Of a DNA stretch of 64,000 nucleotides, positions 7,408 to 22,662 are shown one piece after another. How positions within the stretch are numbered: the first letter of the stretch is position 1; each line of letters starts with the position of its first letter. The position numbers and the translations under genes are program-made. Location of the stretch: the NCBI GenBank assembly GCA_030065055.1, contig JASJDS010000105.1, positions 1-64,000 on the forward strand. The letters run 5' to 3'. The stretch comes from Calothrix sp. MO_192.B10 (lineage in GTDB: Bacteria; Cyanobacteriota; Cyanobacteriia; Cyanobacteriales; Nostocaceae). Under the pieces are notes generated by a model, which saw nothing but the letters and a program-made list of their open reading frames with translations, ran no database searches and was not told the DNA's origin.

Positions 7408-7626
7408 GTAGGGTGCGTTGTCGCGGAGCGCAACGCACCAATAATGGTTAACGATGCTTGCGTATTAACAGATATCAGGACTTACCCACGGAGAACGTAA
7501 GCTGCTCTTAATTTTAACCAACCTTGGGGGTTGAATTCCCCTACTTCTATAATCAGCGCGTTTTGCGTCGGGGTAACATTCCCGTTGCAAAACGTAATTC
7601 GCTCATTCTAAATTCTAAATTCTTTT
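7408..7626. repeat. Two dispersed repeats in the symporter-STAND gap
   Basis: 7408-7440 is a GTAGGGTGCGTT...AACGCACC palindrome related to 55130-55236. 7511-7626 is a longer non-coding element with the blocks AACCTTGGGGGTTGAATTCC, GCGTTTTGCGTCGGGGTAA and terminal ATTCTAAATTC runs. Its inverted copy is at 36121-36243 and a direct copy at 53027-53139. No gene is seen in 7274-7648. Confidence 0.65.
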
Positions 7627-7648: not shown

Positions 7649-9193
7649 TTAAGATATGAGAAGTTCAATATTTTGGCGTGCATATCCTATGTCTTGTCTA
7701 TCTTGCAATAGAGATAAAATTGTACGCAATTTCTGGTTAGCTTGTTCCTTGCCATAAAAAAATGTTTGTAGATAGTTTTGAATTGGTCTGACAATACGCC
7801 TCATTTGTTCTTGAGTGAGTGGCTCATCTTGATTATTTTCTGTAATGAAGCTATGGCTAATAAGGAGTTCTGAACCCTGGATAGTTTGATGGTTGATTAT
7901 TTCTTTAATTTCTTCACAATTTTGATTGACAAATCTAGTAGTAAGATATTTGAGTATTACTGGGTCTAATACATAAAATATTTGACCATAATTGCGATTT
8001 TTTTCAACTAGCGATCGCCTTTCGATTAAGCAATGTAATTTTTCAAATAAAATCGTCGGTGACAAGTAATTTTTTGTATCGTTTTGTAGGTTTGTCCATA
8101 AAGCTTTATTACGCCTTATAGCCAGCCAATACATAATATTTACTTCTTCTGGAGATAGCTCACGGAATTGATTATCTATAAAAGTAGCAATTTGGTCATT
8201 AAAGAATGTTGAATCAGAAACATTGTTGATAAAAAATGATAATTCACCATCAAATACTGCTTTGACTTGTCTTGCAACCCTCTTAAGTATCCAAGGATTG
8301 CTGTACCTTCTGCTAAATTCCTCTAACTGATGGTCTGTACCAACCAAACCTTCTTGCTTTAAAATTATCTTAGCTTCTTCACAGCTCAAACCTCTTAATT
8401 TGTGGAAGCAAACAAATCTATCTGATAATAATTCCAGCTCTTGAGGTTTTTCTCGACTGAGTAATAATAGAGAACTTTTATGTCTTTCCTGTGCAACTCG
8501 TTGTAAAAAATGATTATATTCTCTATAATTTCGTTCATTAGTACCTATAACTGCTTCCCAGTCATCTAATATCAGCAAACATCTGTGTTGGTATAGATAT
8601 TCTATTAATGACGAAAGATAGTTTCCATTATTATGAGAGTGGGATGAAATTTTTATTTTTGGAAGTGTTGCTACCACTTCTGTAAGTGGTGGTGCATCAG
8701 CCAAAGAACGCATAATGAAATAGTCATATCTATTGGCGATATTTTCTATCAGCTGATAACCCAAAGCAGTCTTTCCGATTCCTCCTACCCCATAAATAGC
8801 AATTAACCGATAGCGTTCCTGAATCATGCATTGGGTGAGATAAGCTAGTTCCTGATTGCGCCCATAAAAATGGGAAATAGGTGGTGCTTCGCTCAAATGG
8901 CAGCCACTGTCTACTACCTCCTTCCAGTTTAAATCTAGAACTTGGCAAAAGGCCTTAAATGTTTCCTTTCTAATTGGCTGTCTTGCTTCCCGAAAACGTT
9001 TCCAAGTTGCAAAAGAAACATAACTAGCATAGATATAGTTAGTTGCTAATCGATCCCAATTTTGGTTAGGTTCTAGAATTTTACTGGCTTCTATGAGCCA
9101 TCTGTTATCCTCTAGATTCCAATCTTTTCGTTTTATAGCCTTCTTAATAAGTATTTTCCCAGATTCAGAAGCTTTTAAAGCACGCTGCCTCAT
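7649..9193 (-). CDS. STAND/NB-ARC ATPase with N-terminal HTH-like domain
   Basis: 514 residues. Residues 1-95 form a helical domain of the kind fused to cyanobacterial STAND proteins (WLIEASKILEP, then SFATWKRFREARQPIRKETF). The ATPase follows: Walker A GVGGIGKT at 135-142, Walker B LLILDD at 206-211, then a sensor/winged-helix region to about residue 420 (LEEFSRRYSNPWILKRVARQ). Relatives usually continue into WD40 or TPR repeats as ligand sensors; this one ends after a short helical tail. It lies 114 bases downstream of the receptor kinase gene on the same strand and may be co-transcribed, suggesting linked signalling, which is an inference. Confidence 0.82.
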   Translation of the reverse strand: MRQRALKASESGKILIKKAIKRKDWNLEDNRWLIEASKILEPNQNWDRLATNYIYASYVSFATWKRFREARQPIRKETFKAFCQVLDLNWKEVVDSGCHLSEAPPISHFYGRNQELAYLTQCMIQERYRLIAIYGVGGIGKTALGYQLIENIANRYDYFIMRSLADAPPLTEVVATLPKIKISSHSHNNGNYLSSLIEYLYQHRCLLILDDWEAVIGTNERNYREYNHFLQRVAQERHKSSLLLLSREKPQELELLSDRFVCFHKLRGLSCEEAKIILKQEGLVGTDHQLEEFSRRYSNPWILKRVARQVKAVFDGELSFFINNVSDSTFFNDQIATFIDNQFRELSPEEVNIMYWLAIRRNKALWTNLQNDTKNYLSPTILFEKLHCLIERRSLVEKNRNYGQIFYVLDPVILKYLTTRFVNQNCEEIKEIINHQTIQGSELLISHSFITENNQDEPLTQEQMRRIVRPIQNYLQTFFYGKEQANQKLRTILSLLQDRQDIGYARQNIELLIS

Positions 9194-9307
9194 ATCTCTA
9201 CAGTCAAATTTGCTAACAAAATAATATTTGATAATCCCGGATTAATATTGGTTTGTAAATGATTTGTCTAGAAAACCAATTGAAAGAGTTTGGTATTAAC
9301 TAAGCAT

Positions 9308-11983
9308 TTATTTTTTTGGAGTTTTCAGAAGAACAAACTTAGAATCTTGTACTTTCACTAAAACTCCAACTTTAGTATCCTCATCAATTTTGCGATCATG
9401 AGTCTTACTATCAAATTTAACTAGTGTACTAGCACCTTTTGCTTCAAAATTATCTGATGACAATTTTTGAAACAAATTTTCACGAGTAGGATAATCTTCT
9501 TGTTTTAATCCTTCAGCTATAGCCTGAGTCGCATCATAGCTCATAGCAGTACGCCAATTGATATGTGGTGTTAAATTTGATTTATTACTCCAGAGTTTAT
9601 GTGACTCTTTTTCAAATGCAGAGTCAGTTCTATGCCAAGGAACGGCAAGCACTAGTCTTTCATCTTCAATATCCAACTTTGTAACTTCTTCAATATATAA
9701 ACCATCTCCACCTAATGCTTTAATTGATGACCTATTTATGGAAGTAAACAGACGTGCAAGAAGTTCTTCTGATTTCTTATTGCTAAGAGCTAGCATCACT
9801 ACATCTGCATTTTTCTGCACAGCTTGTTGTACACAGCTTTTTATTAGAATATTTCCTTGAGAAATATCGCAACGAATCTTAATAACTTCTCCCCCCTTCT
9901 CTCGTAAAAACTTGATAAATTCTTGACTTAAGGAATTACTGTATGGAGTAGCAGCATCTTTAATAATGGCTGCTTTTTGGTACTTTTTTCCCCCCATATA
10001 TTCAACTAGATCACTAGCAGCCGTTGAATCAGTCGGAGATGTACGGAAAACATATTTATTAAAAGGAAGTGCATAATCAGGTGAATTTACATCATACTTT
10101 ATTTTTCTGACAGCTGTACTAGTGGGTGAGATCAGAACAAGTTCTTTTTTTCCATATATCTTCCCTGCATTTAAAGTTTGTTTGCTGGTAAAAGGACCTA
10201 TTACACCTAAAATACTAGGATTATCGGCAATTTTATGGTAAATATTTTCAGCTTTAATCTCATCTGCTGGAATGTTTGTTATTAGGACTTGTAACCTTCT
10301 TCCGTCTATCCCAGAAGCAGCACAATTGGAACTAATAAAACTATTTTGTTGGTTATTGAGATTCACTTGTTTAATTTTATCAATTCCACAGTTATATTCA
10401 CTTTGAACATGAGCAACTCCACGTAAAATTTCTTCAGCAGTATTACTATTGGCATCAATTGGTATGTTAACTGCTATCTTTAATGTTTTTTTACTAGAAG
10501 AAAGTGATGCTAAGGCGTTATTTAAATAAATCACTGTTTCTGGATCGTTAGGATTTGAGTCTAATGATTTTTTAAAGTGTGTAATTGCTTCTTGATATTT
10601 TTCTTTTTTAAAGGCTTCTGTTCCTTTTTGCTTTGCTGGTGTACTATTTTTGGGGAACATAATTTCTTCACCCCAACTGAAGCTATCACCATTCGGACAT
10701 TTGGGATAATTTGGACAAATATTATTAGGTATTGCTTGGGCTAGAGGTTTAGGTGTAGAATTTATCGCTGAAACTTTGGTAGAATTATTTTTTTGAGGGG
10801 GTATTGATATTGGAGCTAGATTAATTTCTCTCACGAATAAAACTAGAATCAAAGCTAGTATAGCCAACAACAAAAATCCCATCCAGCGCCTCCATCTTTT
10901 CCAGAAGGTTTGTAGTGATACACATAATTGGCTAGTTATATTTTTGAGATTATGGATTGCAGTATCCCATAATGTAGGTGGAGATATTTCAGTCTCTTTC
11001 TCTTCTGCTTGTATCCTTGTTATTGACAAATTATCAATAGCTTCAAGCACTGTTTCCGCAGACTGAAATCTATCTCTCGGATTTAATGAGAGCATGCGAT
11101 CGAGAATATCTGCAAATCTATGATTAACATGGGGTACATAATTTCTCCATATATGAAGTGAACCACCAGTATTACAAATTTCTGTGGGAGACTTATTAGT
11201 TAATAAATGGACACAGGTTGCAGCTAAGGCATATAAATCTGCTGATATATCTATTGTCCTTCCAGATAATTGTTCTGGCGGTGCATACCCAACTGTACCC
11301 ATCGCAAATGAATATTCAACAGGAATACCAGGCTCTAAATCTCTTTTTATTGCTGTATCGAAATCTATTAAATAGAGTTGTTGATTATCTCTGTGTCTAA
11401 TAATGTTGCAAGGTTTGATATCTCGATGCAGAACACCTTGTTTGTGAGTTTCGTTAAGTACTTGTAAAAGTGATTTCAATACTTCGAGTACATCACTTTC
11501 TGAAAAATTGCGTCTAATTAATTCATATTTCAGGTTGTCACCTGGTATATAGTCTTGTATTAAAAAAAATAACTTTTGGTGGCTAAGATTATTAGGCTCT
11601 ATTTCTCCACTAGGTGCTGGTAAATCGAAAAAATCATAGACCCTGGGAATTTGTTCGTGATTGAGGGTACGTAAAATTTGCGATCCTCTTTTGAAGGCTA
11701 TTCTTGCTTTATCCAGTTGTTCTGCTGTGAGTCTGCTAGTGTTAGGAGGATAAAATACTTTAACCGCACACTCTTTATCAAAAGTGAAATCATGGGCGCG
11801 AAATGTTCTACCGAAACCCCCTCTCCCTATTTCTTCTAAAGCTATGTAGCGTTTATGTTGTAAAAAAAGACTCATTCCACAGTTAATACAATATTTAGCT
11901 GTGATAGAGTTACTATCGCTCAAGTTACCATCACTATTATTTCTAGGCCGGGAACACCTAGGATTGGTACAGTAGACTATCAT
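9308..11983 (-). CDS. Transmembrane Ser/Thr protein kinase with TPR and periplasmic-binding-protein ectodomain
   Basis: 891 residues. An N-terminal four-Cys motif (C5, C9, C32, C35) precedes a kinase domain at 45-320: glycine loop GRGGFG (53-58), ATP-site K75, HRDIKPCN (186-193), GTVGYAPPEQ. The DFG motif reads DFD (207-209). One membrane helix lies at about 367-384. Outside follow a linker with two Cys (C423, C429), a TPR-like pair at about 449-497, then a type I periplasmic-binding domain (about 500-885: KIAVNIPI, ILGVIGPFTSKQTLNAGKIY) like branched-chain amino-acid receptors. This is a one-piece receptor kinase; ligand and targets are unknown. The STAND ATPase gene follows at once on the same strand. 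Confidence 0.88.
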   Translation of the reverse strand: MIVYCTNPRCSRPRNNSDGNLSDSNSITAKYCINCGMSLFLQHKRYIALEEIGRGGFGRTFRAHDFTFDKECAVKVFYPPNTSRLTAEQLDKARIAFKRGSQILRTLNHEQIPRVYDFFDLPAPSGEIEPNNLSHQKLFFLIQDYIPGDNLKYELIRRNFSESDVLEVLKSLLQVLNETHKQGVLHRDIKPCNIIRHRDNQQLYLIDFDTAIKRDLEPGIPVEYSFAMGTVGYAPPEQLSGRTIDISADLYALAATCVHLLTNKSPTEICNTGGSLHIWRNYVPHVNHRFADILDRMLSLNPRDRFQSAETVLEAIDNLSITRIQAEEKETEISPPTLWDTAIHNLKNITSQLCVSLQTFWKRWRRWMGFLLLAILALILVLFVREINLAPISIPPQKNNSTKVSAINSTPKPLAQAIPNNICPNYPKCPNGDSFSWGEEIMFPKNSTPAKQKGTEAFKKEKYQEAITHFKKSLDSNPNDPETVIYLNNALASLSSSKKTLKIAVNIPIDANSNTAEEILRGVAHVQSEYNCGIDKIKQVNLNNQQNSFISSNCAASGIDGRRLQVLITNIPADEIKAENIYHKIADNPSILGVIGPFTSKQTLNAGKIYGKKELVLISPTSTAVRKIKYDVNSPDYALPFNKYVFRTSPTDSTAASDLVEYMGGKKYQKAAIIKDAATPYSNSLSQEFIKFLREKGGEVIKIRCDISQGNILIKSCVQQAVQKNADVVMLALSNKKSEELLARLFTSINRSSIKALGGDGLYIEEVTKLDIEDERLVLAVPWHRTDSAFEKESHKLWSNKSNLTPHINWRTAMSYDATQAIAEGLKQEDYPTRENLFQKLSSDNFEAKGASTLVKFDSKTHDRKIDEDTKVGVLVKVQDSKFVLLKTPKK

Positions 11984-12389: not shown

Positions 12390-13004
12390 TTAGTAATACA
12401 CGCGCTGGGGATAAACCTGGAAAGAATTGAAGAAATTAACACTTTCGCTGGTTAATTCATTTTTTGTTCTGGCTCCAATAACATACACCCTTCGTTTCAC
12501 CACAAATGCCTGGTATTGACCTAAAGTTCCGTCATAATGCTGAATCATTAATTCTAAACCAGGATGACTACCCATCGCAAGATTTCTAGACCTGATTACT
12601 TTGCCATGATTCGCAATAGTTTTTCGCATAGTCCTATTTAGAAATCTGGGAATCCATGGTTTAGGTATTCTAGCCATTCCGTCAATATCTCTATGCATAA
12701 TTATGTAAGCTGTATTATTTGAGCCCTTTGACATTAACTTATCGTGCTTATTGAGTGTTATATATCCCGGCATCCAAATTCTAAAATCCCGTTTCGGTCC
12801 CCACCAATAATCACGATTGTTAGCAAATAAATTATCTTTATTTAGCTGCTGATTTGTGTAATCTATTCTTACAGGCTGTAATTTGTCTGGGTTACTTTGC
12901 CTGTTATCTATTGCTGCTGCTTGATACTGTGTCCCTAACAAAGTTATACCAAGGATGGTGGTTATAGTGATGGGAAGAGTTTTGAGGGCATTAATTTTTA
13001 ACAT
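12390..13004 (-). CDS. Secreted protein of unknown function
   Basis: 204 residues with an N-terminal signal peptide (basic start, hydrophobic stretch 10-30, cleavage likely after QAAA near 32), so it should be exported. The mature part contains GLELMIQHYDGTLGQYQAFVV and RRVYVIGA, ending FFNSFQVYP. That beta-strand pattern resembles PsbP/Mog1-like (DUF1795-type) folds, but the match is weak. A good ribosome site (AAAGGAG) precedes the ATG. No neighbours share its operon. Function not recognised. Confidence 0.7.
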   Translation of the reverse strand: MLKINALKTLPITITTILGITLLGTQYQAAAIDNRQSNPDKLQPVRIDYTNQQLNKDNLFANNRDYWWGPKRDFRIWMPGYITLNKHDKLMSKGSNNTAYIIMHRDIDGMARIPKPWIPRFLNRTMRKTIANHGKVIRSRNLAMGSHPGLELMIQHYDGTLGQYQAFVVKRRVYVIGARTKNELTSESVNFFNSFQVYPQRVYY

Positions 13005-20509: not shown

Positions 20510-22441
20510 CTAGTAATTACACCGCCAAATTTTAATTGCCCCATCATTACTACTACTAACAATAGTTTTGCCGTTGGAACTAATGGCAAGGGAGTGAATT
20601 AACTCTAAATGCCCGGTGAGGGTATCAATTAGTTGTCCAGTCTCCAGGTTCCACAATTTAATTGTCTTGTCACGGCTACCACTAACCAGTAAATCTCCTT
20701 GAGGGCTAATTACTATTGCTGTTACCCAATCTGTATGTCCCATGAAGGAATGAACCAGGTTTCCAGTTGCTAGATGCCAAAATTGAATGGTTTGATCACG
20801 ACTGGCACTAGCGATCGCTTGACCATCTGGACTAATAGCAACACCATATACCCAATCCTGATGTCCAGTAAATGTACGTATAAGCTTACCATTTAATAAG
20901 TTCCAAACTTTCACCGTATTATCGCGGCTGCCACTAACTAGGGTTTGACCATCCCGACTAATGGCAAGACTAGAAATGGAGTTAGTGTGTCCTTTAAGAC
21001 AGCGAGTGGATTGTAGTAGGGGTAATTTCCACAACTTAATTGTGTTATCGCGACTACCACTAGCTAGGGTTTGTCCATCGGGGCTGAAGGCAATGGCATA
21101 GACTGAGTCACTATGGGCTTTCTGACTACGAATAACTGTGCTACCCCGCCAATCCCAAATTTTGATGTTTTTGTCTAAACTACCACTGGCTAAGGTTTGA
21201 CCATCACGACTAAAAGCAATGCCAGTAAACCAGGTTCCTTCCCGTTTAAATAACCCTGATGGTGAGGTGAGGGTATTTACCAAGCTACCTTTATCCAACT
21301 GCCAAATTTTAATGGTATTATCATCGCTGCCACTAGCTAGGGTTTCACCATCAGGACTGATAGCCACAGAGCGAACTGCGGCTGTATGGCTGGTGAGGGT
21401 ATGAATGCATTGCCAAGTTTGCCAAGCTTGGGTAGGTGGAGAAGAGGGGTATTGGGGCTGGGGCGGAGGATTGTTGATGATTGTGGCAGGAATTGAGGAT
21501 GATGAGTTGGATGTAGTGACGGTGGGAGTTGAAGATGGGCTGCTGCTGGATTCTATATCTACTAATACCTCATCTACAGATTGATAGCGATCGCTAACTT
21601 TGTCTTGGAGTAGTTTATCTAAAATTGACCCCAGCTTACTACTAACAGAACCCCCTGTGTTTTGCAGATGTTCTTGCCATAACCACCGAGATTCCCAAGG
21701 GCTATATAGGCTGGTGGGGTGTAAGCCGGTGAGTAAGTGTACGCAAGTAGCACCCAAGGCATAGAGATCGCTGGCTTTATATGCTTCCCCAAAGCGAATC
21801 TGTTCATCTGGGGCATATCCCGGCGTACCTGCCATAGTACCCCTATTACCGGAAAGTACTGTACCGCTGGCTTGTTTTGATACTCCAAAATCAATTAATA
21901 CCAAAGCGCGATCGCTTTGACGAAGAATAATATTTTCTGGCTTAATATCTCGGTGAATTACACTATGTTCGTGGATATATTTTAATACTGGTAGTAAATC
22001 TGTCAAAACCTGCCAAATTTGGCTTTCACCATAAACTCCGTACCTGGCTAATTCTTGCAATAAATTTTCCCCATCCACAAACTCCTGTACTAAATACAGG
22101 CGTTTGTCTTGTTCAAAATAAGCCAACATTCCTGGAATGCGTGAATGCTTTCCTAATTCATATAATCTAACTGCCTCTTGGCTAAATAATTCGATGGCTT
22201 TTGTTAAGGCTTGGGAATTACCTTGAATTTCTGGTGCAGGTAAAAATTGCTTGATTACACAAGATTCATTCATCCTATCTCCATCGATGGCACGATAGGT
22301 TCTCCCAAAGCCACCTGCACCTAATTGACTCAAGGCACGATATCTTTCTTTTAATAACAGTTTAGAACCACAACTGAGACAAAAATTAGCATCAGGAGGA
22401 TTTTGGGGTTTGCTGCAAAGGGGATTGAAACAGTAGCTCAT
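20510..22441 (-). CDS. Ser/Thr protein kinase with Cys motif and seven WD40 repeats
   Basis: 643 residues from the ATG at 22441. A start 66 bases further upstream would translate a GGAACAG repeat run and is rejected. The N-terminus has C4, C9, C21, C24 (the four-Cys motif of cyanobacterial kinases such as SpkB). The kinase domain at 34-310 is complete: GAGGFG, K64, HRDIKPEN (163-170), DFG (184-186). A Pro/Ser-rich linker (about 310-365) leads to seven WD40 repeats, each with SGSxDxTIKxW-type ends, enough for one propeller. No membrane helix, so it is cytoplasmic. Partner unknown. The 3' end abuts a GTCCCATTAATT-type repeat end (20489-20512). Confidence 0.92.
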   Translation of the reverse strand: MSYCFNPLCSKPQNPPDANFCLSCGSKLLLKERYRALSQLGAGGFGRTYRAIDGDRMNESCVIKQFLPAPEIQGNSQALTKAIELFSQEAVRLYELGKHSRIPGMLAYFEQDKRLYLVQEFVDGENLLQELARYGVYGESQIWQVLTDLLPVLKYIHEHSVIHRDIKPENIILRQSDRALVLIDFGVSKQASGTVLSGNRGTMAGTPGYAPDEQIRFGEAYKASDLYALGATCVHLLTGLHPTSLYSPWESRWLWQEHLQNTGGSVSSKLGSILDKLLQDKVSDRYQSVDEVLVDIESSSSPSSTPTVTTSNSSSSIPATIINNPPPQPQYPSSPPTQAWQTWQCIHTLTSHTAAVRSVAISPDGETLASGSDDNTIKIWQLDKGSLVNTLTSPSGLFKREGTWFTGIAFSRDGQTLASGSLDKNIKIWDWRGSTVIRSQKAHSDSVYAIAFSPDGQTLASGSRDNTIKLWKLPLLQSTRCLKGHTNSISSLAISRDGQTLVSGSRDNTVKVWNLLNGKLIRTFTGHQDWVYGVAISPDGQAIASASRDQTIQFWHLATGNLVHSFMGHTDWVTAIVISPQGDLLVSGSRDKTIKLWNLETGQLIDTLTGHLELIHSLAISSNGKTIVSSSNDGAIKIWRCNY

Positions 22442-22451
22442 GCTATGTAGG

Positions 22452-22492
22452 GGAAGGGAACAGGGAACAGGGAACAGGGAACAGAAAGTGTA
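22452..22492. repeat. Short tandem heptamer repeat (GGGAACA)
   Basis: At least four consecutive GGGAACA units just upstream of the WD40 kinase start. They form a typical cyanobacterial short tandem repeat and create a false N-terminal extension of the frame. Confidence 0.8.
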
Positions 22493-22662
22493 CTGAGTTC
22501 TGTTCAAAATTCAAATAGGAGTCCTATAGGATTATATTGATTCTTATTTGTTTACCTATAGATATTAAAGGGGGTTAGTATATTCCCGCCATGCTGTATA
22601 TAGATGAATTTGCTTTAATTATAAAATATTCAAAAATCAAATAGATATTAATGGTTCTATCC

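Follow-up and report, generated by a model that had tools for sequence, protein, structure and literature searches.

The Hanks-type kinase AfsK phosphorylates the STAND activator AfsR of Streptomyces, including at the last residue of its Walker A motif (PMC10936776), and in Corynebacterium an amino-acid periplasmic-binding protein (PBP) controls a Ser/Thr kinase within a single operon, GlnH-GlnX-PknG (PMC9769921). Cyanobacterial fusions of a kinase to an extracytoplasmic type I PBP/ANF domain (alr0344 and others) were listed in surveys of 2005 and 2007, in passages that mention no STAND partner (PMC1262709, PMC2176072). Most Hanks-type kinases of cyanobacteria have no known signal or target, and most STAND ATPases there have no known input. 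Here we describe a 64,000-nucleotide stretch of Calothrix sp. MO_192.B10 (contig JASJDS010000105.1, positions 1 to 64,000; the window) in which a gene for such a kinase-PBP receptor is followed on the minus strand by a gene for a short STAND ATPase. Comparison with related genomes points to an undescribed signalling unit, in that a kinase with an amino-acid-binding-type sensor usually adjoins a small helix-turn-helix (HTH)-like switch ATPase in filamentous cyanobacteria.

An initial annotation of this DNA had read the first gene as one polypeptide combining a Cys motif, a kinase, one membrane helix, TPR and a PBP domain, an architecture confirmed by profile matches, hydropathy and a structural model (Table 1). 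Only the TPR part falls short, as its single Pfam TPR_1 match scores 22.9 bits, under the curated cut-off of 27.8 bits. The catalytic residues K75, D188, N193 and D207 are all present and are invariant in 31 aligned kinases; the DFG motif reads DFD, with D as third residue. By sequence, the receptor is a Hanks-type Ser/Thr kinase of the 4-Cys prefix group with its predicted active residues intact. Since the one hydrophobic helix has an Arg/Trp-rich stretch before it, the kinase is predicted to lie inside and the binding domain outside. The AlphaFold model (mean pLDDT 82) is confident over the kinase and the binding domain, and in Foldseek it matches leucine-binding proteins (4q6b, TMt 0.83) and PknB best. 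The window encodes another kinase of this group, with ∼39% identity across the kinase domain, 8.5 kb upstream of the pair (20510-22507, minus strand).

The extracytoplasmic part matches Peripla_BP_6 (aa 555-862, E 9e-20), and its profile matched LIVBP and Leu-binding protein in the PDB, and metabotropic glutamate receptors more weakly. Both profile and model identify it as a predicted type I PBP fold, LIVBP-like. Positions S79, T102 and E226 of LIVBP contact the amino acid. They align with S600 (conserved in 33/34 sequences), T623 (33/34) and D760 (28/34, Asp replacing Glu); in 22 paired loci the first two are S and T throughout (22/22 each), and the third is D in 20 of them, with N in the remaining 2. 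Because of this fold and the three conserved contact positions, an amino acid or a close relative is the suggested ligand.

The second gene encodes a predicted STAND ATPase of the NB-ARC clade. It was placed by the initial annotation 114 bases further on, on the same strand, which is exact to the base. The protein matches NB-ARC (E 2e-7), has a winged-helix region, and carries LLILDD as Walker B and LLSR as sensor motif; its model (pLDDT 81) resembles the apoptosome, CED-4, plant NLRs and Avs3. Two further features emerged beyond that annotation. First, C-terminal sensor repeats, usual though not universal for the STAND class, are absent from the protein, which ends near residue 514 in the window and in all aligned orthologues. 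Related cyanobacterial STANDs of ∼1200 aa align up to residue ∼509 and then run on for ∼700 residues. We rejected a truncated WD40 protein as the origin of the short form, since inspection of the downstream DNA by eye gave no WD40-like continuation and the orthologue ends coincide; a shared end point argues that the gene is not damaged. Second, the N-terminus is probably a Cro/C1-like HTH, as suggested by the order of helices in the model and by HTH_26 matches to the N-termini of 11/29 orthologues (best E 1e-4, sub-threshold). No significant match was obtained for the N-terminal profile against PDB sequences, and neither a nuclease, TIR or protease effector domain nor TPR was found on the protein.

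Table 1. Features of the receptor kinase-STAND locus; coordinates refer to the window.
Feature	Position	Strand	Remarks
Receptor kinase gene, 891 aa	9308..11983	-	4-Cys prefix, kinase, transmembrane helix, TPR, PBP
4-Cys prefix, aa 4-39	11867..11974	-	NF045510, 35.8 bits (cut-off 24)
Ser/Thr kinase domain, aa 48-310	11054..11842	-	Pfam Pkinase, E 7e-32
Single transmembrane helix, aa 366-384	10832..10888	-	Hydropathy peak 2.59; conserved in relatives
TPR-like helices, aa 449-494	10502..10639	-	Predicted outside the membrane; helices seen in the model
Type I periplasmic-binding domain, LIVBP-like, aa 501-887	9323..10483	-	Peripla_BP_6, PDB profile matches, Foldseek
Segment exchanged relative to sister genome G002	9550..10900	-	Approximate limits, ∼aa 362-810
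Spacer between kinase and STAND genes	9194..9307	-	114 bp; no terminator detected
Short STAND ATPase gene, 514 aa	7649..9193	-	Without C-terminal sensor repeats
Cro/C1-like helix-turn-helix (probable), aa 31-93	8915..9103	-	HTH_26 profile in orthologues; helix order in the model
Walker A GVGGIGKT, aa 135-142	8768..8791	-	
9-bp inverted repeat	7412..7439	.	Past the STAND gene, where two genes converge; may serve both as a terminator
204-aa secreted-looking protein	12390..13004	-	Recurrent upstream neighbour; related genes in 10/31 STAND loci, the window included

The initial annotation had proposed a search for co-occurrence of the two genes across cyanobacteria. In a survey of 218 genomes of the family, close relatives of the STAND (E <= 1e-85) occupied 31 loci in 30 genomes and 17 genera. 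A kinase-TPR-PBP gene lay directly upstream on the same strand in 24 of the 31, across 14 genera, always with the kinase first and with a gap of 9 to 266 bp; one further locus (L109) holds a remnant, a kinase fragment fused to the STAND by deletion. The linkage is thus conserved. Damaged copies also occur, the kinase being broken in L090 and L102 and the STAND frameshifted in L108. By comparison, a kinase/PBP match was found within 1.5 kb at 3 of 29 control loci of non-orthologous STANDs, one of them convergent. In L101 (6301-10027, with the STAND orthologue of genome G086) a cytoplasmic kinase-WD40 gene replaces the PBP kinase upstream on the same strand; a kinase therefore stays next to the STAND though the sensor differs. 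An arrangement in reverse order was seen in other families of the order, where a kinase-TPR gene and then a TPR gene come after a shorter STAND of ∼430 aa (L064:7045-11087, L065:4477-8408), possibly a second form of kinase-STAND arrangement.

A terminator and an independent promoter between the two genes, named in the initial annotation as speaking against joint function, were also looked for. The minus strand was free of terminator-like sites between 7200 and 12500, the spacer included, and promoter-like matches were no more frequent than in shuffled sequence. RNA folding of the spacer is unremarkable (z 0.37), and no Rfam family matches it. With terminator, fold and Rfam checks all empty, an RNA element or terminator in the spacer was rejected.

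Walker A residue 142 is Ala, Lys or Arg in the STANDs of L051, L053, L090, L094, L096, L098 and L108. Such replacement of Ser/Thr142 affects 6 of 7 orphan or broken loci versus 1 of 23 others (Fisher p 8e-5). Loss of this residue as a companion of kinase loss was nevertheless rejected, the tree holding only 2 changes and 3 independent pairs (sign test p 1); because the association is not independent of descent, it is not used as evidence here.

Comparison with the sister genome G002 revealed exchange of the sensor half, a third feature beyond the initial annotation. The kinase domains are 93% identical with a synonymous divergence (dS) of 0.06, the STANDs 91-94% (dS 0.12-0.20), and the proteins of both flanking genes 91-100%. 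From the membrane helix onward (∼aa 362-810), nucleotide identity drops from 91-99% to 61-90% and recovers at the 3′ end, and dS over the binding domain reaches 0.51. Since synonymous divergence jumps within one gene, the change is best explained, at the sequence level, by replacement of the ectodomain through recombination and not by selection on point changes. The reverse case was found between L056 and L057, where the kinase domain is replaced (dS 1.8) and TPR-PBP (dS 0.22) and STAND (dS 0.51) are kept. Exchange of the sensor half next to a constant STAND suggests a modular receptor.

Sensor and kinase also occur as separate genes. In the window genome itself, a gene for a different 4-Cys kinase, which has several hydrophobic stretches, precedes a membrane-TPR-PBP gene on the same strand (L068:6136-10544, contig C168). 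Across L068 and the 9 of 14 sampled relatives that share this arrangement, the split genes are <30 bp to ∼1.4 kb apart. The two parts are therefore found both fused and as neighbours. A short STAND gene (468 aa) lies convergent to the split receptor of L068. The same type of ectodomain was also observed without a kinase (L126:6717-9359, L127:5288-7885, L128:7191-9794, L129:5593-8199). In L129 a Pfam CHAT protease domain takes the place of the kinase, so that the PBP sensor seems to be joined to other cytoplasmic outputs.

We somewhat favour the reading that kinase and STAND form one signalling unit, running from a ligand outside through the kinase to the STAND switch. Architecture, conserved linkage and order, catalytic motifs, lack of sensor repeats and ectodomain exchange are direct observations, from which we infer the following steps. 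The PBP domain, anchored outside the cytoplasmic membrane by one helix, would bind a small solute, most likely amino-acid-like. Binding would rearrange the receptor and change the activity of the cytoplasmic kinase, which may then act on the co-encoded STAND, most simply by phosphorylation. As the STAND has no C-terminal sensor repeats with which to take its own signal, its switch would be set in trans. Once switched on, it could assemble through its NB-ARC domain and regulate genes through its N-terminal Cro/C1-like HTH. The ligand-to-kinase-to-ATPase pathway of the initial annotation thus stands as regards architecture and direction, which fit; its steps remain predictions, and each gene also occurs alone.

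Several observations weigh against this proposal. Six STAND loci have no PBP kinase, and ∼20 sampled PBP-receptor loci (L110-L129, kinase-PBP or related) have no STAND. Pairing exceeds the control with a Fisher p of 3e-8 (25/31 versus 3/29), or 3e-4 with the same 1.5-kb flank, values that overstate the independent evidence because the loci share ancestry and their pairing states require no more than ∼4 changes on the tree. The N-terminus of the window STAND gave no HTH_26 match when searched alone, which leaves the HTH assignment to the model and the sub-threshold profile matches. Finally, AfsR is barely activated by phosphorylation alone (PMC10936776).

The best surviving alternative, though an unlikely one, is that the genes are passive neighbours inherited in one ancestral gene order of the family, with no functional coupling, the kinase having other substrates and the STAND another input. 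Every paired locus does fall within one family, as such an origin would have it, and solitary copies of each gene fit as well. STAND and receptor trees broadly agree, as mere shared descent would give, and their co-divergence (Mantel r 0.62-0.68) is indistinguishable from it. Against passive retention, the other neighbours are scrambled: no gene family downstream of the STAND recurs in more than 4/31 loci, compared with a kinase adjacent in 24/31. Moreover, the two genes stay together in two distinct upstream settings, the second being beside a divergent NB-ARC-TPR gene (L052, L059, L096, L108). Some ancestral order does persist, since an upstream SLH-OprB porin gene is common to 15 loci, and this qualifies the argument.

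A somewhat less probable alternative places the STAND upstream of or alongside the kinase, scaffolding or gating the receptor, or has both proteins report to a third. Linkage gives no direction, the short STANDs lack sensors of their own, and exchange of the kinase domain next to a retained STAND in L056/L057 fits loose substrate specificity or docking. However, the direction known for AfsK-AfsR is from kinase onto STAND, and a signal from outside has to pass through the kinase first. An immunity module is improbable; in it, an NLR-like STAND would respond to phage or another attack, either guarding the receptor kinase or being triggered by it. In its favour, NLR resistosomes and Avs3 are among the fold matches, close relatives differ by an exchanged ectodomain, and STAND proteins and kinases are prominent in the conflict systems of multicellular bacteria (PMC7159879). 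On the other side, the STAND here has an HTH-like domain instead of an effector domain, solute sensing is what the recurrent porin neighbour and the amino-acid-type PBP suggest, and PADLOC matches are generic kinase models limited to the Cys-kinase part. The best of these models, the PD-T4-6 defence kinase, spans only aa 3-356 and was rejected, as many other kinase models match too.

Upstream of the STAND, the recurring families are the kinase, the porin and the 204-aa secreted-looking protein, the last without a match in a Pfam search. The porin gene precedes the receptor kinase in L054-L058, L091-L093, L099, L100 and L103-L107. The window has no SLH-OprB porin; its kinase adjoins the secreted-looking protein, which elsewhere precedes the porin. 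A literature search on the porin with NtcA found nothing. The inverted repeat past the STAND gene has a pattern with no second exact copy in the genome, and a convergent symporter gene comes after it.

The conserved pair offers both ends of a pathway, an ectodomain for ligand screens and one predicted adjacent target. If the STAND is indeed switched in trans by the kinase, it would provide a simple model for the activation of STAND/NLR proteins that carry no sensor repeats themselves. It is doubtful, though conceivable, that the pair represents, in bacteria, an equivalent of the receptor-kinase to NLR route, with exchangeable ectodomains, a constant sensor-less CED-4-like STAND, a phosphorylation switch and a DNA-binding output; its use in sensing amino acids between filament cells or from symbiosis partners, as an example, is an equally speculative suggestion.

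The initial annotation knew of no described system made from this pair, and we likewise found no description of it in the literature covered, which leaves out most subscription journals. Searches on alr0344, or on cyanobacterial NB-ARC proteins together with kinases and periplasmic domains, returned only the surveys of 2005 and 2007. The kinase-PBP fusion has been known since then; what appears to be new is its pairing with a STAND, as a form of kinase-STAND signalling.

Among animal and plant proteins, CED-4/Apaf-1 and the NLRs share the NB-ARC and winged-helix fold, with whole-chain TM-scores of only ∼0.3-0.5, but the N-terminus of the window STAND is HTH-like and not CARD, CC or TIR. CED-4, too, has no sensor repeats; a partner protein holds it. 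Cyanobacterial NB-ARC-WD40 STANDs have a homologous NB-ARC domain, and some the same N-terminal domain (L030-L032), but they differ in their long C-terminal extension and had no such kinase adjacent in the loci checked.

By analogy, the closest precedents are AfsK-AfsR for the output half and GlnH-GlnX-PknG for the input half. In Corynebacterium, GlnH and GlnX are separate proteins and a soluble kinase acts on OdhI, whereas the window gene joins sensor to kinase in one polypeptide, with a STAND as proposed target. AfsK-AfsR likewise unites, in one cluster, a Hanks-type kinase and a STAND with a DNA-binding N-terminus, and the Walker A phosphosite of AfsR corresponds to Thr142 of the window STAND. 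AfsR differs by its SARP domain and TPR repeats, however, and two genes separate it from AfsK. Since the window STAND has an HTH_26-like N-terminus instead of SARP and carries no TPR, we do not file the pair under AfsK-AfsR; as known here from sequence, its genes are adjacent, its STAND combines a Cro/C1-like HTH with a lack of sensor repeats, and its kinase bears a PBP ectodomain.

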